Source of the DNA: Liolophura sinensis
Taxonomy: Eukaryota; Mollusca; Polyplacophora; Chitonida; Chitonidae
Assembly: GCF_032854445.1 (NCBI RefSeq)
Contig: NC_088299.1
Span: 18,159,608 to 18,223,607 of the forward strand
DNA: 64,000 nucleotides
Reading direction: 5' to 3'
The first letter of the stretch is position 1, and every line of letters begins with the position of its first letter. The translations under genes were made by a program, and so were the position numbers. This document shows positions 28,401 to 54,200 of the stretch, one piece after another. The notes under the pieces were generated by a model, which saw nothing but the letters and a program-made list of their open reading frames with translations, was not told the origin of the DNA and made no database searches.

Positions 28401-29123
28401 CACTACCTCAGAATCCCATATGTAAGGTTACCATTTTGCAGCTTATGCTAATATACTCCATCTTGTAAAGTGATATCACAACAAAACATAGTACACTACA
28501 GCAATACAGTAAAACCTCAATGATTGCTAACAACTTGCTAAATGATAAACTGAAATATTCGCAACTTGCTTCAGTTACATAATGCAGGAAATCTGCCCAC
28601 ATTGCCCCCTTCTTACTACAGGGTACTTGCTGCACTTTATCCAGATGAGACTGTATTAGCTTATGCAGACCACACGCACCTCAGGCAAACCTACTTCACA
28701 TCTACAGTAATACATACACACATGTAACTACTTTATACTGTTTAAACGATTTTGGCAAGCTGCATTGGCAAATATTATATATAGGTTATAAAATAAATGT
28801 TGTTTGTGTGTATTCCCACTTTTATGAATACAAGACTTAAATTGGATGGCAATATCTGTATGCATACTCTATATTTGTGTAATTAATTATAATGACAAAG
28901 AACCAAGCAGAGGTTATTTTACTGCAGTACAGTGAGCAGATTATAAGAAAAGCAAAAGGTGCAGAAAAATGAACACAACATTCTGCCAAAGACAAAATTT
29001 GAAGTAAATATCTAATTCATGACAGAAAAAGGAAAAAAGGTATAATAGAAACTAAATTTGACAACTTAAGTGAGAAAAATCACCTTATCTCTTCATATCT
29101 CTCCGATCAAACCAGTTATATTT

Positions 29124-29265
29124 TTATGGTTTTACAACAAGTGTTGCAAATCCATCCACACTTTTCATCTGTCGAGAGTTAAAGCTGACCAGAAGTTGAC
29201 GTTCACCTGTCCGGAATGGTGTCAGTCTCACCCGGGCTCGCAATGTTCCATTTGGTGGTAAATTC
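29124..29265 (-). CDS. Duplicate terminal exon 16, distal copy (A)
   Basis: Same length, acceptor and stop (29126-29124) as the proximal exon 5.7 kb away; it encodes FRTGER where the other has FRAGER. It is intact and in phase with exon 15, so it could serve as an alternative 3' exon if exon 16B is skipped. It lies in copy A of the segmental duplication. Use is unproven, and an uncollapsed allele in the assembly is an alternative explanation. Confidence 0.75.
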
Positions 29266-29760
29266 CTGAAAATCAACAATAATAATTTTTCATAATTTTA
29301 TAATAAATCCTGAAGATGAAACCACCATTTCCACATAAATTTACATGCATCAAACTTTATTTCATAGATACATAGACCAAGAAAAATTTCATTAAATCTT
29401 ACACTTAATCACTCTCACAAACGGTTCTGCCAGGGGGAGATAATTTTTATGCAGACTAAGGGAGACAACTCTGTATATAGCCACATGTTGCCAAATCTAT
29501 AACTATGAGGCAGTCAAAAAATCAATACCAGAGAATCAATACTTTAATGTGACTGCTGTCAACTTTAGACACGTGAGCAAAAGATGGCTCATTTTAAAAC
29601 TCCACAAAACTTCAGCTGCTTGTTGGAAAATTCATTAAAGAGAAAAACATATAAACCCATTGCACGTATGGTCTGTATATGGTGGCTAAAATCCTAGGAC
29701 TGTAGAAGTATGTGGCTCTTTCATGCATCTTCTTACTATATTATCAGGTAATATTAGGAA

Positions 29761-29833
29761 GCCTCCATAGCTCAGTGGTTAGAGCACTGGTCTTGTAAAC
29801 CAGGGGTCGAGAGTTCGATCCTCTCTGGGGGCT
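29761..29833 (+). tRNA. tRNA-Thr (TGT anticodon)
   Basis: 73 nt. A 7-bp acceptor stem pairs GCCTCCA with TGGGGGC; the D stem is GCTC/GAGC. The anticodon stem is CTGGT/ACCAG around loop CTTGTAA (anticodon TGT), and the T stem is GAGAG/CTCTC with loop TTCGATC. A box (TAGCTCAGTGG) and B box (GTTCGATCC) are intact, and a T-run about 25 nt downstream can stop Pol III. It lies antisense inside the transglutaminase 3' region, copy A. Confidence 0.95.
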
Positions 29834-30266
29834 AGACAATGTCTGTTGTCTGAACTTTTTCTTTTATTAATTTTTTTAAACTCCCATCTGTGCTCTATCG
29901 ATACTAAAACACTATCAGTCATGAATCAATATTAAACCACATAAAACAAAAAAAAAATATTACAAAAAACTTTAACTTTGAACTCAAAAGTTGTACTAAA
30001 GAAAACGCTAATGAAATGGTAATATATCAAATAATCTGCAAGTTGCTTACTATAGCAATACTGCAATATTTCTGACAATGAACTATAGGGTAAAAATGTT
30101 TTTATTTTAAAATGTCATGAAAGAAATGCTGCTTGTTGGGAAATTCATTAAAGAGAAAAACATATAAACCTATTGTACGTATGGTCTGTATATGGTGGCT
30201 AAAATCCTAGGACTGTAGAAGTATGTGGCTCTTTCATGCATCTTCTTATTATATTATCAGAGATTA

Positions 30267-30339
30267 GCCTCCATAGCTCAGTGGTTAGAGCACTGAACTT
30301 GTAAACCTTGGGTTGAGAGTTCAATCCTCTCTGGGGCCT
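30267..30339 (+). pseudogene. tRNA-Thr pseudogene (TGT loop, broken stems)
   Basis: Same 73-nt frame as the intact copies and loop CTTGTAA is kept. But the anticodon stem reads CTGAA against ACCTT and no longer pairs, the acceptor stem has a C-C mismatch, and the T loop is altered (TTCAATC). By flanking sequence it is the counterpart of the intact tRNA at 36596 in copy B. Confidence 0.88.
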
Positions 30340-30794
30340 ACACAACATGAATGGTATGAATTTTTTTTTTTCTTTTGAACTCTCAACTCTGCCTTTTCCA
30401 TGCAAGAACACAAATAGTAGTGAATCATTATTGAACCATTTACCATGATATTTTTTTTTTTTGCCAAGCAAATTACAGACTGGATAAAATCTGCCTATGG
30501 GTCACTGGCTTTAAAAAACGTGAGATACCTTAATCTAGAATGATAATATTTCTGATAATAAACTACAGAGTAAATAATCTTAATCTGAATTGTCCTGACA
30601 AACATCGTCTGACATATAGCTTCCTCAGCTTAAGCAACATCTGGCTTCTTCATTGTTTTCCACCCACAAATTTCAACACAACATATTTCTTGAAACACTT
30701 GACAAACAAATATACCTCCATGCATGCTCTTTTTCTGGTAAGATACAAGCTACATGTAGAACTCAACTATCAAGGTAAAGTATGTGATACTGAC

Positions 30795-30862
30795 TGTAGC
30801 TGGAAGTCTGTGGGTTTCTGCAGCCCCGGTCCCTCCACTGTGAGGACGCAGTCAGTCAGGGT
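30795..30862 (-). pseudogene. Truncated relic of transglutaminase exon 15
   Basis: These 68 nt match the 3' half of exon 15, including the intact GTCAGT donor next to it. Homology stops abruptly at 30862, in mid-exon, where the sequence changes to unrelated DNA. The acceptor half is missing, so it cannot be a normal internal exon. It marks the duplication breakpoint. Confidence 0.9.
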
Positions 30863-33800
30863 TTGAGGCCTACTGGGGTAAGCCCCAGTCAGAGTCTGGG
30901 TAAGTGGGCCTCCATGAAAAAAATTTCACAGGGGCCCACTTTCACATAGGCCCACTTTCACAGAGGCCCACATGTATACTGAGAGTACTGTATCTACCTT
31001 TACATGACTCACATCAACTTTGAATAAAAGGCTCACATTTAAAGCTTAAAAATGATTTTCAAGGCCTCAAAAATCACTTTTATACATTTGAAAACAACTA
31101 CATCTGAGGCCCTTACTGAACCTTCCCCCAACTGTGTGCCTTAGCATTAACAGACAGGTAGGACACTGGAACACCTGTTAAGCATGACCATCATTTATAC
31201 AGCTTGCTGTATTATAGTGTCAAATACTAATAAATGTTATGGCCATACACATGTGGTACTGTTTTTGTTTTGTTTTTTGTTGCATGCATTTTGTTTTCTA
31301 CATAAGAAAAAATACATTACAAGTGTAACTAAAGTCATCATTTATAAAGTCTTTTTCTCAGCATAGATATGATAAGATGGTGGCTGGAAACTCATGCATA
31401 TGAGCATATATGGTTTTACAAGAGTGGTGCTGAAAAATTATCAAGTGTCAATGTGGGTGCATACATGAAGAATGTGGTTTAAAACAGGTATCGTGACAGT
31501 GGTTGAAAACTGACCTTCATATTAAGGCCGTTTACTCTTCTGTTTAATCTAAACTTGTATGCTGAAAAGAACTCTTCCAAACAGTTCTGAACACATTTGA
31601 TATATGACATTACATGATAGCCCTAAGGAAATTGTATGTCCCAGGGTCTTACAGTAACAATGAAGCCTCATCTGTTAATAAAATATTTAACTTCGTTTAA
31701 ATTCAGGGCATATATACCCTAAATGACCTCAAATTTCATCCACAAAAGTGCATTTTTACTAAAGAATAATCCAGTTGAATATCAACCTATGTTCCAAACA
31801 AACCTCAAAACACCTTTCTAAAATCAACAGAAGTCTTAGGATCAGGACAAATGCGCAAGTTAGTCACCAACAAAATTTATGGTCATTTAGGGTAGTCTCA
31901 AGGCTGTACTTCACATTTACCTGACAAATGAACAAACTCTGTGCTGCAAAACCAGCAAGAGCTAGAATTGAGCAGTGACCTCATCTCATTTATCAGCCAC
32001 CAATCAGAAATGAAAAGGAACAACCTGTGACTCTTAGTTAAATGGTTCCTAACAGCCCCCAAACTGAGCTCATACTAAGAGTGCTTGCTCAGAGTAGAAA
32101 ATTTTTATGCTGTCAAACCACTCAACCAATGAATATCCAGCAGAAAATGTACATATTACATTTACCTAAATTGCCTACAATTTCATGTTTTGCTAATTAA
32201 TCCACTTTCTGTACCCTGGGTGAGAAATCATGTGAAATTTGATGTTATTACCTTGTAATCACAAATCAAATGTATATACTCACAGAGAATCAACCATCTT
32301 TACTAAGGTTTCTACAGCAGAGCTATCAGTTGGCGAAACAAAAAATAGAATTTGTACCACTGTATATAGCTGTGCCTTTTTCATAACCAAACAAACACAA
32401 TTAACTCTATTCTATTAATGTCTTTAAACCTTTATTGTCTTCTGCAAAACCTATAGGCTAGAGGATTGAGCAATCAGATAGGTACATGTAGTCTGAGATC
32501 AACAGGTATACCCTGCATCAGCACCCAGATGGTCTGACATACATCTACAGGTAAATGTATACATAATAATGCTGATGACAACAGGTGGCAGTATTTTATT
32601 AAATGTCATCTCTGTTACACATTCACAATACACCCTGTTCTTATACCCAGACAACATCATTTAAGTTACAGGTGAATATCATGTCAGGATACTATTAAGC
32701 TGCTTTTACTTTCACTTTATGATACAATGTAAACTCTTCCACTGAAAAAAATCTAAATTTAGCCACAACTTAAAATCTAATATGATGGCATTGTAGCACA
32801 AATATTCAGGGACAGCCTACAATAAAATCCTAGACACACAAGTTGTACTGTATTAATGTAGCGGGGACATAGGGTCACATTGCTATTAAAACAAGACTAA
32901 TACACACACACCTTGTTATACATACATGTATACAGGTCAACAATTACACAATGAGATTTCTCCATACTTTGAAGTAGGCTAATCCATACAAAATCATTCC
33001 CCGCTTTACTTTGCTGGCACAGAAAATAGTTTACAGTTGCCAGCTAGTAGATTTGTCCAGTGTAACTGTTATGCAGTGGCTTATAGATTAGGTTTCAGCA
33101 GAAACTGTAATGAACCATCACAGTCAAGCTAGTACATTTCATGAAGCATATAGCATGGCTAAATTGGAAATACATCCACTACAGTAGAATAAATCACCTA
33201 TTCACATCCAGCCACAAAATGCTGCCGGTTGCTTCGTTCAATTCACAGATCCACGTTTTCATAAACTGGACATGTAGTCTGGCTCCCAAAAGGATGAGCA
33301 CCTAGCTATGTGTACACATGTATCTCCACGTAAAAACAAGCTACCAAAAACTACATATACAGTACATGCCATGCTTCAATAAGCTCCGGTTTTTGTTTTA
33401 AATCTAAATGTTATGGTCCATCCCCCTCCCCCAATAAAAATGATTATGTACTTATTACCTTATTTCACCTGAAGTTTGGCATTTTTCAAGTGACATACTG
33501 TGCTTGATTCTGACTGATTCATCAACCTTAAAGTGTCCACAAGTGGGAAGTCTCTAAACTTTCATTTGATTCTTATCAGAAAAACATAAATGCTGGCCTC
33601 AGAAAGTATCATTTTAAAGTTTTTATGTGCTTGACAGTGCTTTTAAGTGACCAAACTTTAGGTGAAATATGGTGATCATTTACAATACACATGTTATGTC
33701 CTATCTCATTAGAAGTGCATCGACAGCAGTTACATATAACATTCAAGTAAATGCATCTTTACATGACAGCAAACAAGGAGAATATATCCACCTTTACAAA

Positions 33801-34800
33801 TATGTAAACCACTTATCTGACTATTGTCTCTGTGATACTGACTTGAGAATCAACTGAATCTTGGTCGGGTCAGGTATGAATGTCTCAAATCCACATGTCA
33901 TGGTATCAAATACACATTCATTTTGCTGTATGATGAAGTATTTTCTGCTGAGAAAAATGCTAACAAGAGTGGCAGAGAACAGACCAAAACCTAACTGCTG
34001 ATCTTAAACTGGAGAAGGCCTAAAATACTGAGTCAGGTAAATGTTGTCTGTTATTTTGATGTAACAATCACTCTTCACAGTTAATCACTACCTCAGAATC
34101 CCATATGTAAGGTTACCATTTTGCAGCTTATGCTAATATACTCCATCTTGTAAAGTGATATCACAACAAAACATAGTACACTACAGCAATACAGTAAAAC
34201 CTCAATGATTGCTAACAACTTGCTAAATGATAAACTGAAATATTCGCAACTTGCTTCAGTTACACAATGCAGGAAATCTGCCCACATTGCCCCCTTCTTA
34301 CTACAGGGTACTTGCTGCACTTTATCCAGACGAGACTGTATTAGCTTATGCAGACCACACGCACCTCAGGCAAACCTACTTCACATCTACAGTAATACAT
34401 ACACACATGTAACTACTTTATACCGTTTAAACGATTTTGGCAAGCTGCATTGGCAAATATTATATATAGGTTATAAAATAAATGTTGTTTGTGTGTATGC
34501 CCACTTTTATGAATACAAGACTTAAATTGGATGGCAATATCTGTATGCATACTCTATATTTGTGTAATTAATTATGATGACAAAGAACCAAGCAGAGGTT
34601 ATTTTACTGCAGTACGGTGAGCAGATTATAAGAAAAGCAAAAGGTGCAGAAAAATGAACACAACATTCTGCCAAAGACAAAATTTGAAGTAAATTCATGA
34701 CAGAAAATGGAAAAAAGGTATAACAGAACTAAATTTGACAACTTAAGTGAGAAAAATCACCTTATCTCTTCATATCTCTCCGATCAAACCAGTTATATTT

Positions 34801-34942
34801 TTATGGTTTTACAACAAGTGTTGCAAATCCATCCACACTTTTCATCTGTCGAGAGTTAAAGCTGACCAGAAGTTGACGTTCACCTGCCCGGAATGGTGTC
34901 AGTCTCACCCGGGCTCGCAATGTTCCATTTGGTGGTAAATTC
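34801..34942 (-). CDS. Transglutaminase terminal exon 16, proximal copy (B)
   Basis: Acceptor GATTTTCAG, residues 723-769, stop TAA at 34803-34801. Contains [20 protein letters not shown], the last strands of the second barrel. It is the first terminal exon met by the transcript, so is likely the main one. It differs from the distal copy by Ala instead of Thr in FRxGER. I saw no convincing AATAAA close downstream. Confidence 0.92.
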
Positions 34943-37900
34943 CTGAAAATCAACAATAATAATTTTTCATAATTTTATAATAAATCCTGAAGATGAAACC
35001 ACCATTTCCACATAAATTTACATGCATCAAACTTTATTTCATAGATACAGAGACCAAGAAAAATTTCATTAAATGTTACACTTAATCACTCTCACAAACG
35101 GTTCTGCCAGGGGGAGATAATTTTTATGCAGACTAAGGGAGACAACTCTGTATATAGCCACATGTTGCCAAATCTATAACTATGAGGCAGTCAAAAAATC
35201 AATACCAGAGAATCAATACTTTAATGTGACTGCTGTCAACTTTAGACACGTGAGCAAAAGATGGCTCATTTTAAAACTCCACAAAACTTCAGCTGCTTGT
35301 TGGAAAATTCATTAAAGAGAAAAACATATAAACCCATTGCACGTATGGTCTGTATATGGTGGCTAAAATCCTAGGACTGTAGAAGTATGTAGCTCTTTCA
35401 TGCATTTTCTTACTATATTATCAGGTAATAGTAGGAAGCCTCCATAGCTCAGTGGTCAGAGCACTGGTCTTGTAAACCAGGGGTCGAGAGTTCGATCCTC
35501 TCTGGGGGCTAGACAATGTCAGTTGTCTGAACTTTTTCTTTTATAAATTTTTTTAAACTCCCATCTGTGCTCTATCGATACTAAAACACTACCAGTCATG
35601 AATCAATTTAATAACCACATAAAACAAAAAAAAAATTTTACAAAAAACTTTAACTGTGAACTCAAAAGTTCTACTAAAAAAACTCCTAATGAAATGGTAA
35701 TATATAAAATAATCTGAAAGTTGCTCACCATAGCAATACTGCAATATTTCTAACAATGAACTGTAGAGTAAAAATATTTTTATTTTAAAATGTCATGAAA
35801 GTCAAGCACTATTAGGAAGCCTCCATAGCTCAGTGGTTAGAGCACTGGTCTTGTAAACCAGGGGTCGAGAGTTCGATCCTCTCTGGGGGCTAGACAATGT
35901 CAGTTGTCCGAACTTTTTTCTTCTTTTATTTATTTTTTTAAACTCCCATCTGTGCTCTATCAATAATAAAACACTGCTAGTCATGAATCAATATTAAACC
36001 ATGTCAAAAAAAAAAACACAAAAAAACAAAAATATTACAAAAAACTATAACTGTGAACTCAAAAGTTCTACTAAAAAAACTCCTAATGAAATGGTAATAT
36101 ATAAAATAATCTGAAAGTTGCTTACCACTGCAATACTGCAATATTTCTAACAATGAACTGTAGAGTAAAAATATTTTCATTTTAAAATGTCATGAAAGTC
36201 AAGCACTATCAGGAAGCCTCCATAGCTCAGTGGTTAGAGCACTGGTCTTGTAAACCAGGGGTCGAGAGTTCGATCCTCTCTGGGGGCTAGACAATGTCAG
36301 TTGTCTGAACTTTTTCTTTTATTTATTTTTTTTAAACTTCCATCTGTGCTCTATCGATACTAGAACACTACCAGTCATGAATCAATATTAAACCACATAA
36401 AACAAAAAAAAATATTACAAAAAACTTTAACATTGAACGCAAAAGTTGTACTAAAGAAAATGCTAATGAAATGGTAATATATAAAATAATCTGCAACTTG
36501 CTCACTATAGCAATACTGCAATATGTCTGACAATGAACTGTAGAGTAAAAATATTTTTATTTTAAAATGTCATGAAAGTCAAGCACAATCAGGAGGCCTC
36601 CATAGCTCAGTGGTTAGAGCACTGGTCTTGTAAACCAGGGGTCGAGAGTTCGATCCTCTCTGGGGGCTAGACAACATGAATTGTCCTTTTTTTTCTCCTT
36701 GTTTAACTGTCAACTGTGCCTTTTCAATACCTTATACAAGAACACAAATAGTATTGAACCATGTACCATGATACTTTTTTTTTTGTCAAGCAAATTACAG
36801 ATTGGATAAAATCTGCCTATGGGTCACTGGCTTTAAAAAAACGTGAGATACCTCAATCTAAAATGATAGTATATGATAGTAAATGCTAATATTTCTGATA
36901 ATAAACTACAGAGTAAATAATCTTAATCTGAATTGTCATGACAAACATCGTCTGACATACGGCTTCCTCAGCTTAAGCAACATCTGGCTTCTTCATTGTT
37001 TTCCACCCACAAATTTCAACACAACATATTTCTTGAAACACTTGACAAACAAATATACCTCCATGCATGCTCTTTTTCTGGTAAGATACAAGCTACATGT
37101 AGAACTCAACTATCAAGGTAAAGTATGTGATACTGACTGTAGCTGGAAGTCTGTGGGTTTCTGCAGCCCCGGTCCCTCCACTGTGAGGACGCAGTCAGTC
37201 AGGGTCTGGGGCAGGGAGTTGAGGAAAGACACCTCCACTTCTACCGACTGTCCCAGCTTGACCTCAGACGGTACCTGTCAGGTGTTAGAAAACCACTCAC
37301 CATTCACTACAAGTGCACCACAGATCTGTCACAATTGTGTGTCACGAACAGTAGTCACAAAGATTCAAGGTTCTTAAGTGGAAAAGATACACTTGAGCCC
37401 ATGCGATCAGAAGGCAATCTTACACTAAAGTCATTCTGTCAAATGACTCTAAAATTGTTATTTCTTATGTTATAAGATCCAAATTTTGCTTAAAATTGTA
37501 AATTCTGAGTAAGTTATTATATAACACATTTCAGATAAAAGAAGGGAAAGTTTATTGAGTGCTCAGGACTGCAGATCATTATTTGTGATCAGTTATTATC
37601 GAGTACTTCAATTAAATGAAGAAAACATGATCAAACTGTTGTACTAGTTACATTTATGTAAATGGATAGCATCTAGTAGAAGTGTAAATGTAGGTATAGT
37701 CATCAGCTGCAACTGTACAAAAGGGTGATAAAACAAAGGCCAGTCCAAACAGTGCTTGTTCAATTCCACTGAACTTTCACCAGCCTAGCGATATTAATGG
37801 AGTACTGACCATTACTGACCAGAATAAGTATATTGTACATGAGATACCTTGATATCCAAGGTGGGCTTAACCAGTCTGAATGTATCAACTTCTGTGTACA

Positions 37901-40900
37901 CCTGATCTGTCTCATCAACATTGGCCTGGCAGGAGATTCTCCCTTGGGCATGGTCAACTAATTTATACAGGTAGTCCCTGGTTGTCACCTTCATCACCAC
38001 CTCCTTACCTGGTAAAAAAACAGAGTACACACATGACCAGTTCATCCAGGTATTCCCTGACTGTCATCTTAATCACCACCTCCTTACCTGATAAAACAAC
38101 TGAGTATAAACATAACCAGTTCATCCAGGTATTCCCTGACTATCACCTTCATCACCTCCTCCTTACCTGGTAACACAACAGAGTACACACATACCCAGTT
38201 CATCCAGGTATTCCCTGACTGTCAACTTAATCATCACCTCCTTACCTGATAACACAACAGAGATACACATAACCAGTTCATCCAGGTACTCCCTGGCTGA
38301 CACCATCATCACCACCTCCTTACCTGATAACACAACAGAGACACACATGACCAGTTCAACCAGGTACTCTCTGACTGTCACCTTCATCACCACCTCCTTA
38401 CCTGGTAACACAACAGAGTACACACATACCCAGTTCATCCAGGTACTCCCTGGCTGACACCATCATCACCACCTCCTTACCTGATAACACAACAGAGACA
38501 CACATGACCAGTTCAACCAGGTACTCCCTGACTGTCACCTTCATCACCACCTCCTTACCTGGTAACACAACAGAGTACACACATGGCCAGTTCATCCAGG
38601 TACTCCCTGGCTGACACCATCATCACCTCCTTACCTGATAACACAACAGAGACACACACGACCAGTTCAACCAGGTACTCCCTGGCTGCTACCATCATCA
38701 CCACCTCTTTACCTGGTAACACAACAGAGTACACACATGGCCAGTTCATCCAGGTACTCCCTGGCTGACACCATCATCACCACCTCCTTACCTGATAACA
38801 CAACAGAGACACACATGACCAGTTCAACCAGGTACTCCCTGACTATCACCTTCATCACCACCTCTTTACCCGGTAACACAACAGAGTACACACATAACTG
38901 GTTCATCCAGGTACTCCCTGGCTGTCACCTTCATCACCACCTCTTTACCTGGTAACACAACAGAGTACACACATGACCAGTTCATCCAGGTACTCCCTGA
39001 CTATCACCTTCATCACCACCTCCTTACCTGGTAACACAACAGAGTACACACATACCCAGTTCATCCAGGTACTCCCTGGCTGTCACCTTCATCACCACCT
39101 CTTTACCTGGTAACACAACAGAGTACACACATACCTAGTTCATCCAGGTACTCCCTGGCTGCCACCATCATCACCACCTCTTTACCTGGTAACACAACAG
39201 AGTACACACATACCTAGTTCATCCAGGTACTCCCTGGCTGCCACCATCATCACCACCTCTTTATCTGGTAACACAACAGAGTACACACATGGCCAGTTCA
39301 TCCAGGTACTCCCTGGCTGCCACCATCACCACCACCTCCTTACCTGTTAACACAACAGAGCACACACATACCTAGTTCAACTAGGTACTCTCTGGCTGCC
39401 ACCATCATCACCACCTCCTTACCTGGTAACACAACAGAGTACACACATGGCCAGTTCAACCAGGTACTCCCTGGCTGCCACCTTCATCACCACCTCCTTA
39501 CCTGGTAACACAACAGAGTACACACATACCTAGTTCAACCAGGTACTCTCTGGCTGCCACCATCATCACCACCTCCTTACCTGGTAACACAACAGAGTAC
39601 ACACATGGCCAGTTCAACCAGGTACTCCCTGGCTGCCACCATCATCACCACCTCTTTACCTGGTAACACAACTGAGTACACACATGGCCAGTTCATCCAG
39701 GTACTCCCTGGCTGACACCATCATCACCACCTCCTTACCTGTTAACACAACAGAGCACACACATACCCAGTTCATCCAGGTAGAGTGTGCGTGATGATAA
39801 ATACCACTATAACCTAAATCATCATGTGGTAACCTTAGGCTGCTGTTCAGGTTGCCTCAGCTTACTTACACTCCTTTTTAGCCAGTTTGACGTGGAATGT
39901 CTCCGCTTTGATCTTGGACTCAACCTCTCCTGTGTAGCGGACCACAGATGCCATCAAGTGTATGACGATGTTCCGCTCCTTTCCACTCTTATTCTCCATT
40001 TTGGCAACGACATCAAAGTCCTTGCCCATGTAATGAATGTCTTTGTCCACCAAGTCAAATGCAACATCCTGTGGAGCACATGTGGCATGGATAACTATGA
40101 CAAAGACAATGGTCCGGCATTTCCGAAGAAGACTTAAGGAGGCATGTTTCTGTTGGATTTTACACTCTCAGACTGACTACCATTTGATGGCACTGTGTAT
40201 CAGTTTTTTAATATAAGCCAATATGAAAGAGACACAGGGACATATGAAAGGGAGTCAAATTGATAAAATACTGAAAGCATCTTATACTTAACATTAGCAA
40301 AATAATAACATAGTTTATAATAATCTAATGGAGCAAAACTGAAAGTGACAAAAATGGATCAAATCAGAGCTATAAACAGGTAATGCTGAAGACAGTTGTT
40401 TTTGTGTTTTCTTGTGATTTCTTTCTAAGAATGCCCTAACTCTTCAAACATTTCAACTGCTTCTGCAACAAACACTTTAAAACATTCCAACAGAACTATG
40501 GTGTGTCAGTTTTGTGAAGCTTGCATGAGGACAGCTCCTCCTATCAGCTGACAAAGATATGCTCACCTCAGTTCCGTGATCCTCGTAGATCTCCTTCCGC
40601 TTGGAGCCAGTTCGTATAGCCCGTAGCACAGCTGCCCTCTCCGAGGAGCTGCCTGACAGAGAAACCTCAGGTTAGCTGTTGACAGGCCTGTCATTAAAAT
40701 AGTCACTAACTTCTTTGTCATAGTCTAAACACATTACAATGAATTACCTCAAAGAAAAAAAAATTTTAGCAAGAAAATAAATGTTGCATATCCACCAGGG
40801 CCAAATATAGCTTTCTAAGTTGGGCATCCTTTTAGTGAGGATAATTTGAGCTCAAATATTTTCAGATATTAAGAAACCTGATACAAATATACCAAATTAT

Positions 40901-43900
40901 AGTGTGAATACCACTGACAAATCCTTGTACAATCAGTATACAATTTACATGAATATATATATATTTTTTTATTATTTTTTGTATCAGGAATTTTTTCTAA
41001 CAGTTAGGTTAAATTTATCAGACAATATTCCCCCTAATTTTCCTAACTTCAAAAGGGTATCAAAATAATCGTTGCACTTGTCTCTAAATAACAATAATAC
41101 AGTTATCCAAATCAACTTTGTTGCTACGCAAATATCAACTTGTGAGATCATTCAAAAACCTAGAAAAAGTAACTACACAAATATATAAAAGCAATAAAGC
41201 ACAGCTTTCATGCACTAACAGAAGGTAATAATTTATTATTATTGCATGTTTGACTTGTGAAATAATATCCTCATGTGATACCTTCTCCAAACTTGTAACC
41301 TTCCGTGACATCATCCCGATCTGGATCAAACCGGTCCATGGCAGCATTGACGACTCCACAGAGACTGCCACACTTCTTGGTACTGATGAACTTTCCCACC
41401 CTAAAACCATACACATATGCTTCCCATAGTAATCTACATACGTAGCCCCCAAGTACAGTTCCACTGCATGGTCTGCCCCAACATAACAAGGATTCATCCT
41501 GGCTTCAATGACATCGTTCAGCCTCCAACAAACAAACACTTGGAGTTTGTACTCCTTATGTAGCTCAAATATGCCTGGTAAATTTTGATGTACATGCACC
41601 AAATAGTTGTTGACCTCAAGGCTTCAGCATTGCAGGTACAGGGGAAGTATGTAATAACTGTACATCTTATATGTAACAAGATTTCAATCATCTTTTTAAT
41701 GTGCATCAGTGCATTAATTATTAATTATATTAATCCTTATTATTCAAATATATATACTAAACTTATCCGCCAGGGCCAGTATGGCTTTCTAATTTCTTCC
41801 CACTAATGCAGCGTGGCAAGCTCTAACACTTTTTAGGAAGCTAATTTGGGCTCAAATATTTTCAGATCTTGACAAACCTGAAATAAATGTCTTACACAGC
41901 AAATTTTAGTGAAAATTACTGACAAATCCTTGTACAATCAGTATAGAATATTCATGAATGTATTTTTTTTTTCAAACATTTCTTTCTATCAGGCAATATT
42001 CCCCATCCCCCATTTATAGGCTATGCCTTAAGTTGGTTACCTTTAAAGGGTTTCAAAATAATCCTTACATTTGTCTCTGTACTTACAACAAATTCAGCAT
42101 GATCAACATCAGCTTGTGAAAGTCAAACTTTCACAAGCTCAGCAAATGAACTTCTACTCTGAGATTTTAAAGGAAATGAAATCCAAGCCTACACATCTTT
42201 CTTCCAGCTTTTCTTCCAGGTTTTGTCTTCTCCCATGGCATAGTCAATCCTGTCAGCGTTGACCTCAGCAAACAGGAAGGCTGTATCATAAGGCAGGTGA
42301 ACGTCTCCCTCTCGGATGGCTTTAACAGACGCTGGGCCACAGCGGTACACACCTGAAAGTGATCATGCCAAGACAATGACTCATTCAGTACATGTATATA
42401 TACATATATGTTTAAATGATACCTGTACGTGTTCTGTACAACAACTTATGATACAATAAATTGTATTTCATACATTAAAGTATAGTACACAGGTTGAAGC
42501 TGACATGCAAGAACGGTGTAAATGGAGAGGAGTTCAGGTGTGAGAAGGGAGGGGGGAGGGTGTGGAAAACGTGTCGTAGGAGGGAAAAGTGTGAAGCCCA
42601 TATGCACATCGCCTAGGTCAACCATCTTCACAGATTCAGTCAGAGGTACTTAATCATAGTTTGATTCGCCAATGATGCTGTCGCTCCTAATTATGGCCCA
42701 AAAATAAACTTTAAGACAATAAAACAGGAGAAAAATCACAAAAATGAGATATTTCAGCTATATATGTGTAAAGTGCCATACATGACTTCAAAATGAGTAG
42801 GCCTACGCCTTCCGGCACAAATCTATCATTTTCATAGTCCTTCTAGATGTATACAGTGTGCTATTTTAAAACATCTCACCGAATCTATGGCCGACAAACA
42901 GCAGTCGATCGTGGAACTTTTTGAATTAATCTAGGTGAGGTGCGGTGCCCTTTTCAAGGCCTAGATTTGGCGCCATGTGCCATTTTTCAATGAGAAACGT
43001 CAGCGAAGTAAGTTCTCGATTCTACTGGGGGAAGTCAAAACACGATGCGTAACTGGAAATGCACCCCAGTTAAGACTATCTTCGATCTGAAGACACAGAT
43101 TACGCGAGCTAACAATAACATAAAGATCTATGGAGAAAAGTGAACGGATAAGCTTGTCCTGAAGCAAACGTTAAATTCTGAGAAATAAAAAGACTGGGCA
43201 CCTGCGTAACTCTTCCCGAGTCGGCCATTTTGGTGTCGAATGAACTACCACAAACTGCGCAGAGTTGTTCACCTTCAAAAATTCAAAGGGAGAGAACCAA
43301 AGAGTTGCATTCTTCTGGAGAAGGCCTGCATGTGATACATACATATAGGCCTGTATGTGGTATAAGCCCTGTCATTAGACAACTCGACTGCACATAATGG
43401 GTTAAGCCAATAAATGATTCGTCTTGTTGAAAGAGCCGCGTTCTAATTTGTAAATAACTTTATTTCGTTGCTTTTTTAAATAAAGTTATCTCCTCTTTCA
43501 AATAGGACTAATCTTGACCTTCCTTAATTAAAGCAATAAAGATGATCTTTTAACATATAACATATACGCCTATCTTATGTGGGCCGATAATTACCAACAG
43601 TTCCATTTGCCCTGTTTTTCTTGGATATATCCACTCGATTTGAGCCATTCAGCTTCCATAAGCTCCTCCAAACGATCTTCCGGATGACTTTCTAATTCCA
43701 GAAGGAGCTATTCGAATCGGCCTGACTTTAGGCAAGCACAATGTAAGAATCAGAGATGACAGGCTAGACACGTGATCCACACGTGACCCATTGTTACCCA
43801 CCGTCACTAAGTTCTTGCGGTGTACCGTCTATCGCCTGCCACCCTCCGTATCCGGCCGGCAGGTCAGGGCGTGTCATCCACACCTCATTCCACACGTGAA

Positions 43901-46900
43901 AGTTCCTGTGAAGGCAACGATGAGCATGAATTCCATCTGGTCGGGAGATTTAGCAAATAAAAGTGTGCAAAGCATACACGTTCATCTAGGTAAGTATTTG
44001 GCAGTAAAGGCCTCATTTGGGCTTTCCGGTATGTAATTACCTGTGCATGTTGTTACGATATGACAGTCGATATGTTTACATGGTGTCAGAAGTTGGATTT
44101 ATTTAATTTTATCTTTAACGTACAGGACAATTTGTCAATTACGAAAAATAAAACTCACTATCAGGTGCAGTTTTGATTTTGGGTATACTTTGTTCGTAAG
44201 ACTGAATATAGGCGCTTCGTATTAAAACAGCGTCAGGACGGCAATATATGGGATAGGCCCATGTACAGTACGTGTAGACCCCTACAAACGTTATAATTTA
44301 TATGGCAATATCAATCTATGAGCGATATAGGTTGGTCTCTGACTGTGAGCACTGAGTGGGAAAACTTCTGAATGAATGAATGAATGAATGAATGAATGAA
44401 TGAATGATAGGTGTAGCTTATTTTCATAACACATACAACTCGGCCTGCACAATACACATTCGAAATAATTCGGCATCGAAAGATAGATGGCCAGATTCCG
44501 CACGAGTTCACTTCAGTGAGCAAAACTGAAACCTCATTGATACTGGTAATGTCGTATGACAATTACAAGGTTGTTAAAATGTATGCAGTTGTTATACACC
44601 AATCGTTTGGTTCAACAAAATGTTTATTTGAAACCTCTATGGATAAAATGAAGAATGAAATTTCGTGTAATAATACGATGAACTACCCAACCGTCAGCTG
44701 ACTCCGGTGGGATTAGTGCATAACACTTACATTTTGTAGCTTGTTCATTTGTTACTTGAACTCTGCGGTACAAAATTCCATTTCCTTCTACTAATCTATT
44801 CTACTGCGCTGCGTGCTTGACACTTCCATTCTATTCTACTTGTATTGTGTTCTGTTCTGTTCTATTCTATGCTACACCATTCTACTTGTATTCTATTCTT
44901 TTCTACTTGTGTTCTGTGCTATTCTATCTTACACAATTCTGTTTGTATTCTATTCTATTCTTCTTGTATTCTGTTCTATTCTAGGCCAATTCTATTTCTA
45001 TTCTGTTATACTTGTATTTTATTCTACTTGTATTCCGTTCTATTCTATTCTGCTTGTATTATATCCTATTCTGCTTTTATTCTATTCTATTCTACACCAT
45101 TCTACCTGCATTCTATTCTACTTCCATTCTGTTCCATTCTACTTCCGTTCTTTTTTATTCTACGCTATTCTATTTGTATTTTACCGGTGCATGTATGCTA
45201 TTCCATTGCATTCTCACCAGATGGAGTCCTCGCTCATCTTCTCCTCCGGTTCCCCCTTCTCGTTCCAGTACATATCGATGGTGAGAGAACCGTCACTGTC
45301 GCAGGCTGACTGAAAGTTCGTGACACTACGTGTGGGGAAGCCCAGAGCTCGACACACTGCATGTGGAAGGTAATACATACACTGGCCAGAGGTTTACAAC
45401 AAAAAATCACTGCAATCGCCATGATAGTAAACATGGTCACATTGTAAGTAATTTACTAGACGTTGTCACTGTTTACATTGGAGCCAAAAGCTTTGTAGCC
45501 GAAGCTGGGGCATTTAACAGAAGACACTATGTTTCCACTGCCAGCCAATCAGCGTCAATTCTGCACCCCTTTAAGATCGATGGGACTAATGACTTCTGAC
45601 AATACACCAATAAAATGGCGCCTTCGAAACCATATCTACCAAACGTCGCATATAATTTGATTCTTTACTGCAGAATATAGTACCAACCACAATTTGATTT
45701 TCGTTATTATCCTGGATCAGGCTTTCTTAAAGCAGTTGAAATATATGACTTAAGTCTTAATTAACTTGCTTAATTCGAGCCCAGATATGTCTGGAATGGT
45801 TGTGGTTTTGCCCCAGAAAATTGTCAGATGCCTGCCAAAGGGCGATGGTTTTTTCCATGTAGATGTATATACATTAAATGTGAAAAGTCTTGGGTACGGC
45901 GTTAAACGCCAGTGAAATAAATGCATTTCCGGAAAACTATAAATGATTGTTTTGTGAGAGGCCTACACGATGTCATGATCCCAGAGAAGACCCAGCATTG
46001 GCCGAATTTGACCGGTTTGCCAGTCCTGTAGAACTGCTCGATGATGGCTTCACTGCCCGTCCATTCCAGAGGAGATCGGCCGCCCACATAGTTCCCTGTC
46101 CAGTTACCGTGCAGGATTCCGTCATCGTCTTCCACATTGGCCTGTTTAGCAAAAATTGAGACATATTATCTTAAAAAGAGCAGAGCCCAGGAAGATGACA
46201 AGATGCCAAGCATTGAAACATTAAACATCCAAACGGTCCTCAAAGTAAGTGGAATTACGAGTAAAGTGAAAACATGTTAAAAATTTTCCTAAAAATATCG
46301 TACTGTTAATTTATTCACTTCTATAACATGACGCTGGACTTACACTTCTATGACATGATGCTGAACTTACACTTCTATAACATGACGCTGGACTTAACAC
46401 TTATATAACATGACGCTGGACCCACCCTTTTATAACATGACGCTGGCCTTACGCTTCAAAACATGACACTGGACTTACACTTATATAACATGACGCTGGG
46501 CTTACACCTCTAAAATATGACGCTGGACTTACACTTCAAAACATGACGCTGGACTTTCATTTCTATAACATGACGCTGGACTTACACCTCTATAACATGA
46601 CGCTGGACTTACACTTTTACAGCATGACGCTGGACTTACACTTTTACAGCATGACGCTGGACTTACACTTTTATAACATGACGCTAGCCTTACATTTCAA
46701 AACATAACGCTGGACTTACACTTTTATAACACGATGCTGAACTTACACTGCTAAAACATGACGTGGACATACACTTCTTTAACACGGCACTGGACTTACC
46801 ACAGCAGTGAGCTTGCGAACCACGTTAATGGGGTCACCACGGGCAATCACCGGCATTTTTGATTGGTCAAGCACTTTGATGGCACAGTCCAAGACGACTC

Positions 46901-49900
46901 CGTCAAACTGAAAACAGAAAACTATTATCTCAAACATACTTCATATAATGTATGTGAAAAAGGCAAGAGCGTTTTGTACAAAATTGGGATGTGTGAATGC
47001 ATAAGAGAAATTGTCGGTAGAATCGATTATTGCGTCAGTGAGGGAGAACACACGGCAGAAATACTGCAAGGCCACACAACAGGCATTTACTTAGAACCTA
47101 CCTGTGAAAAATTCCATGGCTTCCCACAAACATTTTTATGGTTCCCCACATATATTTTTCCGGTTTCGTTAAGGACATACTCAGCTTTCCCGTCCTCACT
47201 TTCCATGTAGACAGCGTCATCTATAACGTCACAAATTACATTTTGTTTCATGAATGGTATAATTTGAGAACTAAGGAGGTTAGTATAAACTTTCATCTGC
47301 ATGCCGATTGCATTTCTTGCAATGTTAATGTCATTTATACACCTACTTGTAGTTCTTCCTTACCATCTTATTAAAAGTGTACACAACCGATTTGTTCGTG
47401 CTATTACAAATTAATAACAATTCATTCACACACGTCGCGCTATAAAGAAGTTTTGTAATTGGAAATTGCTCTGCAGCACTGGTCATTAAGACTACTGTTT
47501 AAGTAACGTTCAGCACTTTCTTTCCCAGAAGCAGAGCACCTGATGATAACACGTACATGTGCGTGTGATAGGTGTTCCTACGCTTTTATCGTGGAGGCTC
47601 CATGTGAGCCTCATATTTTGCGACGTGTTCCTTGGCTCAGATTGCAGGGGTTTCAAGTGAGCCTCATTTATATGTACTAGTTTTTATACTTACGTTTACA
47701 CCAGGGATTGAAGAGGATGTAGATGGGTAAGGGATGAGTGTACCGGAACAAAGATTTCTTGGTTTTATCATCTTGACGGATGATGTCAATTTTCAGACGC
47801 CATTTTCCGACCGGACATACGGAGGGGGTAAATATCGTAACTTCGGTGATTCCACCGTCTGTTTTCTTCACCTTAGCGCCCCACTCGTTGGGATGGTCCT
47901 CGTCGGAGAGGATTAGTTCCACTAGAGAGCCCTTGCCGGGGAGGGGGTTATCACCTGTAATTAGTCAGAGGTAACACAGTGAGTCAACCACCGCGTGATG
48001 AAGAAATATCCTCAATGTCAATGAAATTACTGAGGGCGGAAGTCTAAAATTTAAACGTGAAACTCAAACATGCATGTGCACACCTCTCGTTATTTGAAAG
48101 GGGTATTGAGGAGCCTTCACCATAAGACCCTTTTCAAACGCTATCATTTACAGCCATTCGCGCACAAAGCCATTCGCGAAGTTGTACTATCTAAGTGAAA
48201 TACAATCAGATCACTCTCAGTCGCACTATATTTGTAACTGTATATATCTATGGAAAAACGTTTGCTGCATGCTTATCTATCCCTACCTAAACTTGATGCT
48301 TATATCCCTACCCAAACTTGATGATCATATATCCCTACCAAACCTTGCTGTTTATATATCTCTACCAAACCTTGCTGCTTATGTATCTTTACCAAACCTT
48401 GCTGTTTATATATCTCTACCAAACCTTGCTGTTTATATATCCCTACCAAACCTTGCTGTTTATATATCCCTGCCAACCCTTGCTGCTTATATATCTTTAC
48501 CAAACCTTGCTGTTTATATATCTCTACCAAACCTTGCTGCTTATATATCTCTACCAAACCTTGTTTATTATCTTTCCTTACCAAACCTTGCTGCTTATTT
48601 ATCTCCACCAAACCTTGCTGTTTATATATCCCTACCAAACCTTGCTGCTTATATATCCCTACCCAAAACTGATGCTCATATATCCCTACCAAACCTTACT
48701 GCTTATATATCCCTACCAAACCTTGCTGCTTATGTGTCACTACCAAACCTTGCTGCTTATATATCCCTACCAAACCTTACTGCTTATATATCCCTACCAA
48801 ACCTTGCTGCTTATGTGTCACTACCAAACCTTGCTGCTTATATATCCCTACCAAACCTTACTGCTTATATATCCCTACCAAACCTAGCTGCTTATATATC
48901 TCTACCAAACCTAGCTGCTTATATATCCATACCACACCTTTCTGTTTATATATCCCTACCAAACCTGGCTGTTTATATATCCCTACCAAACCTTGCTGCT
49001 TATATATCCCTACCAAACCTAGCTGCTTATATTTCTCTACCCAAAAATAATGCTCATATATCCCTACCAACCTTGCTGCTTATATATCTTCACCAAACCT
49101 TGCTTTTTATCTCTCCCTACCAAACCTAGCTGTTTATGTATCCCTACCAAATCTTACTGCTTATGTATCTCTACCCAAAACTGATGCTCATATATCCCTA
49201 CCAAATCGTGCTGCTTATGTGTCTCTGCCAAACCCTGCTGCTTATATATCTCTACCAAAAATTGCTGCTTATCTATCCCTACCAAACCTTGGTCCTTATA
49301 TACCCCTACTAAACCTTGCTGCTTATTTATCACCACCAAACCTTGCTGTTTATATACCCCTACCAAACCTTGCTGCTTATTTATCTCCACCAAACCTTGC
49401 TGTTTATATATCCCTACCAAACCTTGCTGCTTATATATCCCTACCCAAAACTGATGCTCATATATCCCTACCAAACCTTGCTGCTTATATATCCCTACCA
49501 AACCTTACTGCTTATATATCCCTACCAAACCTAGCTGCTTATATATCTCTACCAAACCTAGCTGCTTATATATCCATACCACACCTTGCTGTTTATATAT
49601 CCCTACCAAACCTGGCTGTTTATATATCCCTACCAAACCTTGCTGCTTATATATCCCTGCCAAACCTGGCTGTTTATATATCCCTACCAAACCTTGCTGC
49701 TGATATATTCTTACCATACCTAGCTGCTTATATATCCCTTCTCAGCATTGGTACATATACATCCCTCCCAAACACTGATGCTTATGTATCCCTACCCAAA
49801 ATTGAGGCTTATATATCCCTACCCAACATTAGAGTATATACATCCCTACCCAACACGGATACTTGTGCATCCTTACCCAAGATTGATGCTTATATATCCT

Positions 49901-51211
49901 TACCCAACTTTAGCCCATATATCCGTAGCCAACGTTGATGCTTTCATATCCCTAACCAGCATTGATGTTTTATATCCCTAACCAATATTGGTGCATGTGG
50001 TGAACGAGGTGTTGATCTACCACACAGTGATGCATATTACTCCCTACCCAACATTGGTGCAAATATGTTCCTAACCAAAACTGACGCTTATTCATTCCAA
50101 TCGACAAATCATACTGATACATCAATATACAAGCATCTATATACGATGTATACAAGGATATGCTGTATAAGCTTCTGCCAAGCATTGGTATTTGTTCCAA
50201 TTCACCAAAATAAGCAATGTCTGATGTTAATGCTTAAAAATCATCAATGGTCAACATTTCTACGCTTACTCACCCCTAGCATCCGCAAAAGTGGAATTGA
50301 GCTACGTAAACAGGAACATATCAAAGAAAGAATTTTCGAAGTGATTGTGAAAACTGAACATTCAGGATTCGTGATTTTCGTTTATGTACTTCAATTCTTC
50401 GATACATGTATATTTCCAAAAATACATCCATGATCTGTTCCAGACTGATAATAAAAAGCAAAAATACATCTGTGATCTGTTCTACACTGATGATAAGAAG
50501 CAAAAATACATCCCTGATCTGTTCCAGATTGATGAAAAAGATTGATTAAAAAGCAAAAATACATTCCTGATCTGTTACAGATTGATGATAAAACGCACAA
50601 ATACATCCCTGATCTGTTCAAGATTGATAATAAAAAGCAAAAATACATTCTTGATCTGTTACATATTGATGATAAAAAGCAAAAATACTTCCCTGATCTG
50701 TTATAGATTGATGATAAAATGCACAAATACATCCCGGATCTGTTATAGATTGATGATAGAAAGCAAAAAATACAAATAATATAACTTGTCATATGGTTTC
50801 ACTGCGTATGGACATGTCTCTTACCAAATTCGAAGATGAGCCGGAGATCATCCTTCTTGTCGTCATAACGCCTGCTGAAGGTGACCTTCACGTCAAACGG
50901 CTGACCTCTGCGGACTACCAGCTGACGGGGATTACCGTGAAGGATACCCGCTTGCTTCTCCTTCGTGATCTCAAATTCGTCCGTGTGGTGAGCTTTCGTG
51001 TTGGCCGCGATGTTAAAATCTACAGACTGGATTTTAAGGGCTTGTCCGTCAGTAATCTCATCTGCGTCTAGAGGAGTGCAAAAGAAAGTAATAATTGTCA
51101 TGCATCGAACCTACGTATGTATGTATGTATGTATGTATGTATGTATGTATGTATGTATGTATGTATGTATGTATGTATGTATGTATGTATGTATGTATGT
51201 GTGTGTGTATG

Positions 51212-51243
<32 letters not shown>

Positions 51244-54200
51244 TGCGTGTGTGTGTGTGTGTATTTATGTATGTATGTATACATGTATGTATAATGTATA
51301 CATGTATGCTTGGTATTTAGCGTCGTACTTTTTTCCAGTCAAATAACGAAGAAGAGCCATTAGGTGTGTGTACATACAATTGTGTCTTCTCTTGCCGCCA
51401 GTGAAGCATCAGATATGACACTACACCCACATTATACCGACACCGGGCTAATCAGTCATGCTGATTTCACAAGGGAACATGTGTCTCTAATGTCTCTCAT
51501 AGGCAAGGATGATGAACTGGCAAGAAAATATCTACATTGTTGTATTATTTGTCAGTATTTGTCAGATGCTTGTTGATGCTGTATACGTCTCAGATAAACA
51601 TTTAATTCTGTGTTTAAGATTCAGATATACCTGGTAGACATTGTTAGGGCTGTTATAGCTGGTAGACATTGTACGGGCAGATATAGCTGGCAGACATGGT
51701 AAGGGCAGATATACCTGGTAGATATTGTAAGGGCAGATATACCTGGCAGACATTGTTAGGGCAGATATACCTGGTAGAAATGGTAAGGCAGATATACCTA
51801 GTAGACAATGTAAGGGCTGATATACCTGGTAGACATTGTTAGGGCAGATATACCTGGTAGAAATGGTAAGGGCAGATATAGCTGGTAGACACGGTAAGGG
51901 TAGGTATACCTGACTGATACCGAAAGGACAGATATATGCCTGACTGACATTAAAAGGGGAATTATGCCCCATAGATGTTGCCATGGAGATGCATGTCTGT
52001 ATATTGTTGGACAAACTGGTCTTGCGCAATAAAGTATTATTACATCCTTTGTTGAAGTTGTGAGGGGAGATATACCCAGTTGATATTCCCATAGTAGATA
52101 TAGGATTGCTGATGTTGTGCGGGGCGATACACCCAGTTGATATTCCTATGGTAGATATAGGATTGCTGATGTTGTAAGGACAGAAATACCCAGTTGATAT
52201 TCCCATGGTAGATATAGGATTGCTGATGTTGTACGGGGCGATACTCACAGTTGATATTCCCATGGTAGATATAGGATTGCTGATGTTGTACGGGGCGATA
52301 CTCACAGTTGATATTCCCATGGTAGATATAGGATTGCTGATGTTGTACGGGGCGATACTCACAGTTGATATTCATATGGTAGATATAGGATTGCTGATGT
52401 TGTACGGGGCGATACTCACAGTTGATATTCCTATGGTAGATATAGGATTGCTGATGTTGTACGGGGCGATACTCACAGTTGATATTCCCATGGTAGATAT
52501 AGGACTGCTGATGCTGTACGGGGCGATACTCACAGTTGATATTCCTATGGTAGATATAGGATTGCTGATGTTGTATGGGGCGATACTCACAGTTGATATT
52601 CCTATGGTAGATATAGGATTGCTGATGCTGTACGGGGCGATACTCACAGTTGATATTCCCATGGTAGATATAGGATTGCTGATGCTGTACGGGGCGATAC
52701 TCACAGTTGATATTCCTATGGTAGATATAGGATTGCTGATGCTGTACGGGGCGATACTCACAGTTGATATTCCCATGGTAGATATAGGATTGCTGATGTT
52801 GTACGGGGAGATATACTCAGTCGATATTGCAAGGCTCTCACCTTTGACATTGAACACTCTCCGGACCATCTCGTCCACAGCGCCCTGGGACCGAGGGTAG
52901 TAAGCCACGGTAGGAGGATAGTGAGAGCCAGCCGAGCCTCGTTCTCGTCCCGGTGACGTCAATCCACGCGAGCTGCTGCGAAATCTAAAATGCAAAGGCC
53001 AAAGTATGATAAAGCATAAGACTAGTGTTCGTGAGTCATCTTTACTCAATCAAATTTGCGATGTCCAGCAACACCACCATTACGCTAGTGGAATGAACAC
53101 TGTATTACGAACAAAATTCTAGATATTTTAGGGTGAAAAGTCTGTGTTTCCCGCTAGCCGGGCATTTTGATGTGTAGGTGCATGTTTGAAAAATCGTGCA
53201 ACAATAGTTTGGTAAAAATGGAAATTGTCTAAGCCTTTGTCAGGTATGACTTTTATTGATGAAAGTCTGAAATTCTTGGCGAAAGAATTAAAGAATTCAG
53301 GAGGTGATGAGCCTCCGTGCTAGATGAACATCTCAGCTGATGACATATCGATGTTCAGATTTGGTCGGTGAATCTACGTGCGGACTTTTACTGGCCAATA
53401 CATGTGAAGATTTTTACTGGCCAATCCACGTGAAGATTTTTACTGGTCTTGGAATAATTGGGGCTGAGTTACACTAAACGTTAACAGAAAAGACAACAGA
53501 TAATATAGCCTTAGTAGTTTCGGCAGAGGGGTGGAAGCAGACCTAAAGAACCATACCCCTTTTCTCAGATGTCATGGTAACTGTAATAAACAACTTTTAA
53601 TCTGGAGTTATTACGAGGCCACGGGATGCGCCATGGTAGGATAACCCAAACCACGATGTCGCGTCACATGTACCGTACCTCACGCAGATACAATTAAAAG
53701 GCAAAACGGGGTTCAGTGATGTCAGCGGAAACAGACGAGTGCTCGATATATAGAAATAACTCGCATCTGACTGGTTTGATTTGATAACATGGCGGCCCTT
53801 TCGATTTTCTCAATGTGCCCGCTTTTGGTTACTTTGAACTGTGATATCTCGGCTATGCAACATCACACAAATGCAAAGGTATGCTTTTTAAACCTTATGT
53901 GGGTCACTTCACTATCAGTGGTTACATACAGTTGGTCTAGTTTAGGTTCGTAGTGCCGCTTCTGGAAACTTAATGTGAGTCTGAGGTCGGTTCTAACAGG
54001 CCTGTCTTCTTTCCATATAAACTAAAAAATATATGCTCTGAAAAATCGCTTCTGACGTATACAAGGTCAACGGAACATCTTCAAAAGCGCTTTTATATAA
54101 GGTGGCTCAGAAAGAAGTACTCCACGGACAGCTATGTCAGTTGATTTATTTGATTTGATTTGATTGATGTTTTTCGTCGTACTCAAGAATATTTCACTTT

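Follow-up and report, generated by a model that had tools for sequence, protein, structure and literature searches.

Tandem duplication of an intron-exon boundary has been described from amphioxus, where minisatellite-like arrays of this kind, called mirages, occur in Adh3, in the globin genes BflGb6 and BflGb9 and in the troponin C gene, with similar repeats in PGBD5 (PMC3087553, PMC3902484). Both acceptor-side and donor-side cases are described, many copies keep their AG or GT, copies at the cluster boundaries escape homogenisation, and regular splicing is reported to be undisturbed, as RT-PCR suggested (PMC3087553). In human UBC, and also in VCX3A, each repeat unit carries AGGT and stretches of whole units can be intron, spliced in or out; according to the same study, 792 human introns lie within tandem repeats, and in 77 of these the intron measures a whole number of units (PMC10809524). 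Ratchet points and RS-exons of Drosophila, according to PMC8605326, juxtapose an acceptor and a donor, the junction restoring a donor, and in recursive exons competition between donors influences inclusion.

We analysed a window of 64,000 nucleotides (18159608-18223607 of contig NC_088299.1) from the mollusc Liolophura sinensis, whose genome comprises 609 Mb in 632 contigs, and found in it an intron whose anatomy makes it a genuine, unambiguous and large example of a type already known: a mirage combined with a UBC-like array of dual sites. The host is a factor XIII-like transglutaminase gene. In its model, each of the 13 introns that separate modelled exons has GT-AG borders and a single frame is open over 717 residues; the model matches the Pfam families Transglut_N, Transglut_core and Transglut_C, and aligns with human factor XIII (1evu) at E=2.5e-131. 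Donors and acceptors were scored with vertebrate matrices. The relevant features, in positions of the window and with a slash at splice junctions, are:

37138..52983, minus strand: transglutaminase gene, factor XIII-like; 14 exons modelled, the gene start and last exon lying outside the model.
39870..40068, minus strand: exon 12; donor AGT/GTAAGT, score 5.98 (vertebrate matrix).
38009..39869, minus strand: intron 12; phase 1, GTAAGT...CAG, 1,861 nt, with canonical borders and an open frame across the site.
37848..38008, minus strand: exon 13, which starts GTAAGGAGG; the exonic part of the array unit corresponds to this start.

A preliminary description of this DNA had placed the array intron at 38009..39869, and the gene model agrees, placing a phase 1 intron there on the minus strand, with exon 40068-39870 before it and exon 38008-37848 after it. 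The number 13 given to it then becomes 12 in the present model; 13 would need one extra upstream exon, and the model lacks the gene start. With a factor XIII C-terminus as the query, matches to the last exon were obtained at 34828-34950 and 29151-29273. These matches are held by a 4.2-kb duplication (25931-30123 and 31617-35801, 97.4% identical), and a linked piece at 30267-30869, which resembles 36596-37212 (89%), cuts into exon 14 of the gene; part of the transglutaminase 3' end is therefore present twice.

About 95% of intron 12 is a tandem array (Tandem Repeats Finder: period 79, 23.1 copies, 90% matches), which is laid out as follows:

38009..39738, minus strand: 22 complete tandem units, 79 bp (16 units), 78 bp (5 units) or 76 bp (1 unit) in length; no two are identical.
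39739..39783, minus strand: partial outermost unit of about 45 nt, which starts TCTACCTGGATGAACTGG; placed by alignment.
38009..38020, minus strand: authentic acceptor TTTTTTTACCAG; score 10.68, the best among 23 acceptors (vertebrate matrix).

Listing the units reproduced the 22 copies upstream of the true site that had been counted before, but corrected a length range given as 77-79 bp, units of 76, 78 and 79 bp being present. Each unit consists of about 47 nt resembling the start of exon 13, followed by about 30 nt of the 3' end of intron 12. The consensus shares 42 of 47 positions with the beginning of exon 13 and scores 69 against a maximum of 27 for shuffles, none of 200 mononucleotide shuffles being as good, and in the alignment the repeat continues directly into exon 13. 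Given this exon identity, and a remainder that is the intron 3' end, the array unit is, on alignment, a copied intron-exon junction. The likeness of the units to the beginning of the next exon and the origin of the array at the intron-exon border, both proposed earlier, thus hold. The tandem units span an exon-intron boundary of their host gene, as those of a mirage do. We take the label from amphioxus, whose mirages have the same boundary-duplication anatomy with AG and GT kept in many copies. The two differ in size, intron 12 having 22 copies of 79 bp and the two BflGb6 haplotypes 3 and 6 units, each 150-160 bp long (PMC3087553, PMC3902484), and in that each intact copy in intron 12 is predicted to form one overlapping donor-acceptor site.

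This overlap follows from exon 13 itself, which begins GTAAGG, so that the copied junction reads CAG/GTAAGG with an acceptor and a donor at one point. Among the 22 upstream copies, AG is kept in 21, GT in 21 and both in 20; after the junction 15 copies read GTAAGG and six read GTAAAG, and every one of the 15 has the full CAG/GTAAGG. The AG/GT copies, which the preliminary description had overlooked, are predicted dual-specific sites, with donor and acceptor at one point. Its statement that all 22 copies keep the AG fails at the copy at 38869, which reads ACCGG. Its contrast between seven T at the true site and an interrupted tract in the copies fared better: the T7 tract is found at the true acceptor only, and the interruption is present in the copies, although not uniformly as TTACCAG, with TTATCAG and TTAACAG forms occurring too. 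Two copy boundaries have lost one half of the dual site (scores from the vertebrate matrices):

38868..38871, minus strand: copy boundary without AG, CGG/GTAAAG; donor 5.84, acceptor -1.72.
39263..39266, minus strand: copy boundary without donor GT, CAG/ATAAAG, AG kept (copy at 39264); donor -2.97.

Without its GT, the copy at 39264 is a dead end for re-splicing. On the vertebrate matrix, copies with AG score 5.56-9.12 as acceptors against 10.68 for the true site, which is ahead of the best copies by just 1.6 bits, and they fall within the range of the 13 modelled acceptors of the gene (1.44-10.9). Scored as donors in the same way, CAG/GTAAGG reaches 11.97 and CAG/GTAAAG 7.57, compared with 5.98 for the authentic exon 12 donor, and the 15 CAG/GTAAGG copies stand above all 14 modelled donors (at most 11.32). 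Both score cut-offs were passed at 21 of the 23 array positions, the true site counted. A dual-specific array is characterised by an AGGT that recurs at a fixed position of the unit, in a donor and an acceptor context, and such an AGGT is found in 20 of the 22 upstream copies; scanning 18 other arrays of the window on both strands (a subset of the Tandem Repeats Finder list) yielded no dual site that passed both cut-offs. The AGGT is what the array shares with UBC, whose units carry it as well (PMC10809524). The UBC units are coding, 228 nt long and in frame, with isoforms seen by RT-PCR, whereas the intron 12 array is intronic, has its authentic donor outside the array and consists mostly of units that break the frame. 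In a full-text search, which covers few subscription papers, no paper combining a mirage with a dual-specific array was among the matches listed.

Ratchet points have been described in long introns (PMC8605326), whereas intron 12 holds 20 intact upstream AGGT sites within 1.9 kb. In 21 of the 22 copies the junction is followed by GT, so that a donor would be regenerated after a first splice, as at a ratchet point. On the vertebrate matrix, the donor regenerated at exon 12, AGT/GTAAGG, scores 5.36 (0.97 for GTAAAG copies), compared with 5.98 for the authentic donor, and does not outcompete the 11.97 found at the end of most units; we therefore do not class the copies as ratchet points. Under the competition rule of that source (PMC8605326), a regenerated donor weaker than the downstream donor of the unit would favour inclusion of the unit and not its removal.

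If exon 12 is joined to a copy and the remainder is retained, a stop follows 26-79 codons from the junction in 22 of 22 cases, the AG-less copy included, in place of the open frames of 64-91 codons that had been proposed, and all 22 read-through frames end before the true exon 13 or within its first codons. Where copies are 79 nt apart, the frame ends at the TAA contained in the GTAA of the next copy. Used as single cassettes, 17 of the 22 units would bring a frameshift and a stop, and the five 78-nt units would remain open and in frame:

Starts 38869, 38712, 38558, 38401 and 38323 (e.g., 38324..38401), minus strand: 78-nt units, potential open in-frame cassettes of 26 codons, from translation.

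Divergence is highest in the two units nearest the exon, unit 21 (mean of 12.7 differences) and unit 22 (10.4), followed by unit 5 (9.9) and unit 20 (9.7); the divergence of units 21 and 22 would be expected if the body of the array had been amplified later. Units two apart are closer than neighbours (mean differences 5.4 vs 7.5), which points to dimer expansion, and amplification probably proceeded partly as dimers. The copies encode REYL where exon 13 has RDYL, as noted before and as alignment and translation agree; human factor XIII has GEY at the aligned position, a weak hint that the E of REYL may be older than the D of exon 13. Changes per column were 1.42 in the first 50 columns, which are exon-derived, and 1.41 in the last 29, which are intron-derived. 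The AG/GTAA core had two changes, a number equalled or undercut in 9 of 79 six-column stretches, the core itself counted. Variants in the coding frame were few (6 synonymous, 13 nonsynonymous), with a synonymous to nonsynonymous rate ratio of 1.68, the other two frames giving 1.19 and 0.38. Neither core conservation, nor the comparison of exon and intron halves, nor codon changes gave a clear signal of selection on the copies in these tests, which are weak. We read the array as near-neutral DNA, a reading with which mild constraint is compatible.

Other arrays occur in the same gene and in its surroundings. One of them also lies at a splice site of the gene:

46316..46799, minus strand: second splice-site array, with 18 units (about 27 bp each) that begin precisely at the donor GTAAGTCCAG of intron 5.

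GT is kept in 16 of its 18 units, the authentic donor counted, and no convincing exon homology was found in it (9 of 200 shuffles as good). Further candidate exon mirages in intron 1 (57 bp and 28 bp) and intron 2 (42 bp and 27 bp) were rejected, with 189, 83, 4 and 200 of 200 shuffles, respectively, as good. At 51622-51936 in intron 1, a 28-bp array repeats CCAG/GTATATC, with acceptor-like copies and weak donors.

Beside the window we sampled 200 kb of flank in 20 stretches (L008-L027), giving 264 kb in total with the window. About 53 kb past the window end, a Lon-type protease gene (L023:3284-4186; homology from tblastn with an E. coli Lon query) carries a 60-bp donor-side exon-boundary array. 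It begins within the exon AAQLPEHAHKHAMKDLKRLKQMSSHMPEHAML and repeats the last 23 nt of that exon, exactly or nearly, together with the donor AAG/GTGAGTCAC; there are 13 GTGAGTCAC sites, the authentic one included, and the next exon of the gene (NYLELMAELPW) lies beyond the array. A 95-bp x 65 array at L016:1767-7931, whose unit has a TTCAG/GTGAG donor-like site after an ATG, contains 47 exact TTCAGGTGAGAA, and a small exon beside it is possible. Counted at a period of at least 20 and at least three copies, 85 tandem arrays make up about 24% of the 264 kb. We compared 80 of them (units of at most 200 bp; the five longer ones dropped) with shuffled units, using cut-offs of our own choosing. 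An AGGT dual site was present in 4 arrays, that of intron 12 among them, where shuffling gave 1.4 on average and reached 4 in 1 of 60 sets (reversed units gave 1), and donors scoring at least 10 were present in 4 against 1.9 (7 of 60 sets; reversed units 0). In the same 80 arrays enrichment was absent for donors of at least 8 (8 vs 7.3) and for acceptors (6 vs 6.0). Dual-site enrichment across arrays thus appears weak. In the consensus of three flank arrays, of which L019 contains two and L018 one, the dual sites are weaker, with donors of 6.9, 9.1 and 7.3, and reading the surroundings of the 98-bp array of L019 disclosed no exon beside it. Matches to Rfam were tRNAs only in the window, and in 14 of the 20 flanking stretches there was nothing at its thresholds. 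Mirages have been reported from cephalochordates; queried with a fluorescent protein of lancelet origin, the present genome gave no match, a negative obtained without a positive control. A tandem array with a 397-bp unit at 35433-36674 carries four tRNA-Thr(TGT) genes; a fifth such gene lies at 29760, and 30267 gives a weaker match to a tRNA.

The explanation that we consider probable is that intron 12 is a mirage, grown as a neutral repeat and tolerated because its last acceptor is the strongest and wrong choices may be re-spliced or degraded. Unequal exchange or slippage would have enlarged the array, in part by dimers, and what would keep it intronic is that no copy has a polypyrimidine tract as good as that of the terminal acceptor; this last acceptor would be chosen in most cases. 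If an upstream copy were used first, the junction would again have a GT donor, and the remaining units could be removed by a further splice. Since excision between two copies would re-form the identical site, repeated splicing would tend towards normal mRNA. Products that escape re-splicing would mostly meet a stop within 26-79 codons, so that nonsense-mediated decay could clear them. There is no need in this explanation for an adaptive function of the array. A different account of the same neutral array, whose probability overlaps with that just given because neutrality is common to both, is that the copies are silent decoys, never spliced, with the terminal acceptor picked through its T7 tract and through exon definition by exon 13, and with inconsequential dual sites. 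The true acceptor does rank first among the 23 scores, and clear selection on the copies was not detected, as silent decoys would have it; yet copies with AG lie within the acceptor range of the gene and the 15 CAG/GTAAGG donors score above every modelled one, so full silence would need extra repression, and we give this account appreciable credence, somewhat short of even.

We find it improbable that the array is regulatory or variable, with poison units through which copy number determines how much of the mRNA is productive, or with its 78-nt units serving as 26-codon cassettes. Most copies score as a plausible exon, with acceptor and donor, and the division into 17 single cassettes that bring a stop and five that are open in frame would suit such a role, but the reading frame and the splice core are without clear constraint and the exon-derived part of the unit is as variable as the intron-derived part. 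Long tandem arrays are difficult to assemble and the copy number here comes from one assembly; that the assembler lengthened the array is nevertheless very unlikely, in that all 22 units differ, which an assembler would not invent, and when 371 bases of the array were searched against the same genome, there were at least seven matches, those listed all falling within this array. We attach next to no weight to an ordinary intronic minisatellite whose unit is splice-like by accident. With 85 arrays occupying about 64.5 of the 264 kb sampled, some must carry splice-like words, and array units show no enrichment of donor words or of acceptor words taken singly, but accident would also have to supply the identity to the adjoining exon that no shuffle approached and the continuation of the repeat into exon 13.

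Returning to the mirage with tolerated decoys, re-splicing at the copies is, from their predicted sites, a real possibility and not a finding. More doubtful is a self-correcting splicing ladder, by which intron 12 would be removed piecemeal, starting at any copy and losing whole units in no fixed order, since the same donor-acceptor site would be re-created every time a unit is excised. In a toy model of re-splicing that ignores donor competition and chooses sites uniformly, the normal product amounted to 0.93 with reusable junctions vs 0.28 without them, and to 0.52 vs 0.27 when each event carried a 0.5 chance of escape.

The intron 12 array joins two literatures, that on mirages and that on dual-specific splice-site arrays. 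It places 22 natural near-copies of one acceptor, few bases apart, beside the real one, which can show what decides acceptor choice, and it is usable for testing how splicing handles many decoys. If the ladder were true, it would explain how many decoy acceptors are tolerated beside a real one in a repeat-rich genome, and such arrays could expand freely wherever an exon starts GTRAG. Boundary arrays recur, with two more cases in 264 kb, and intron gain by junction duplication becomes testable in one genome.
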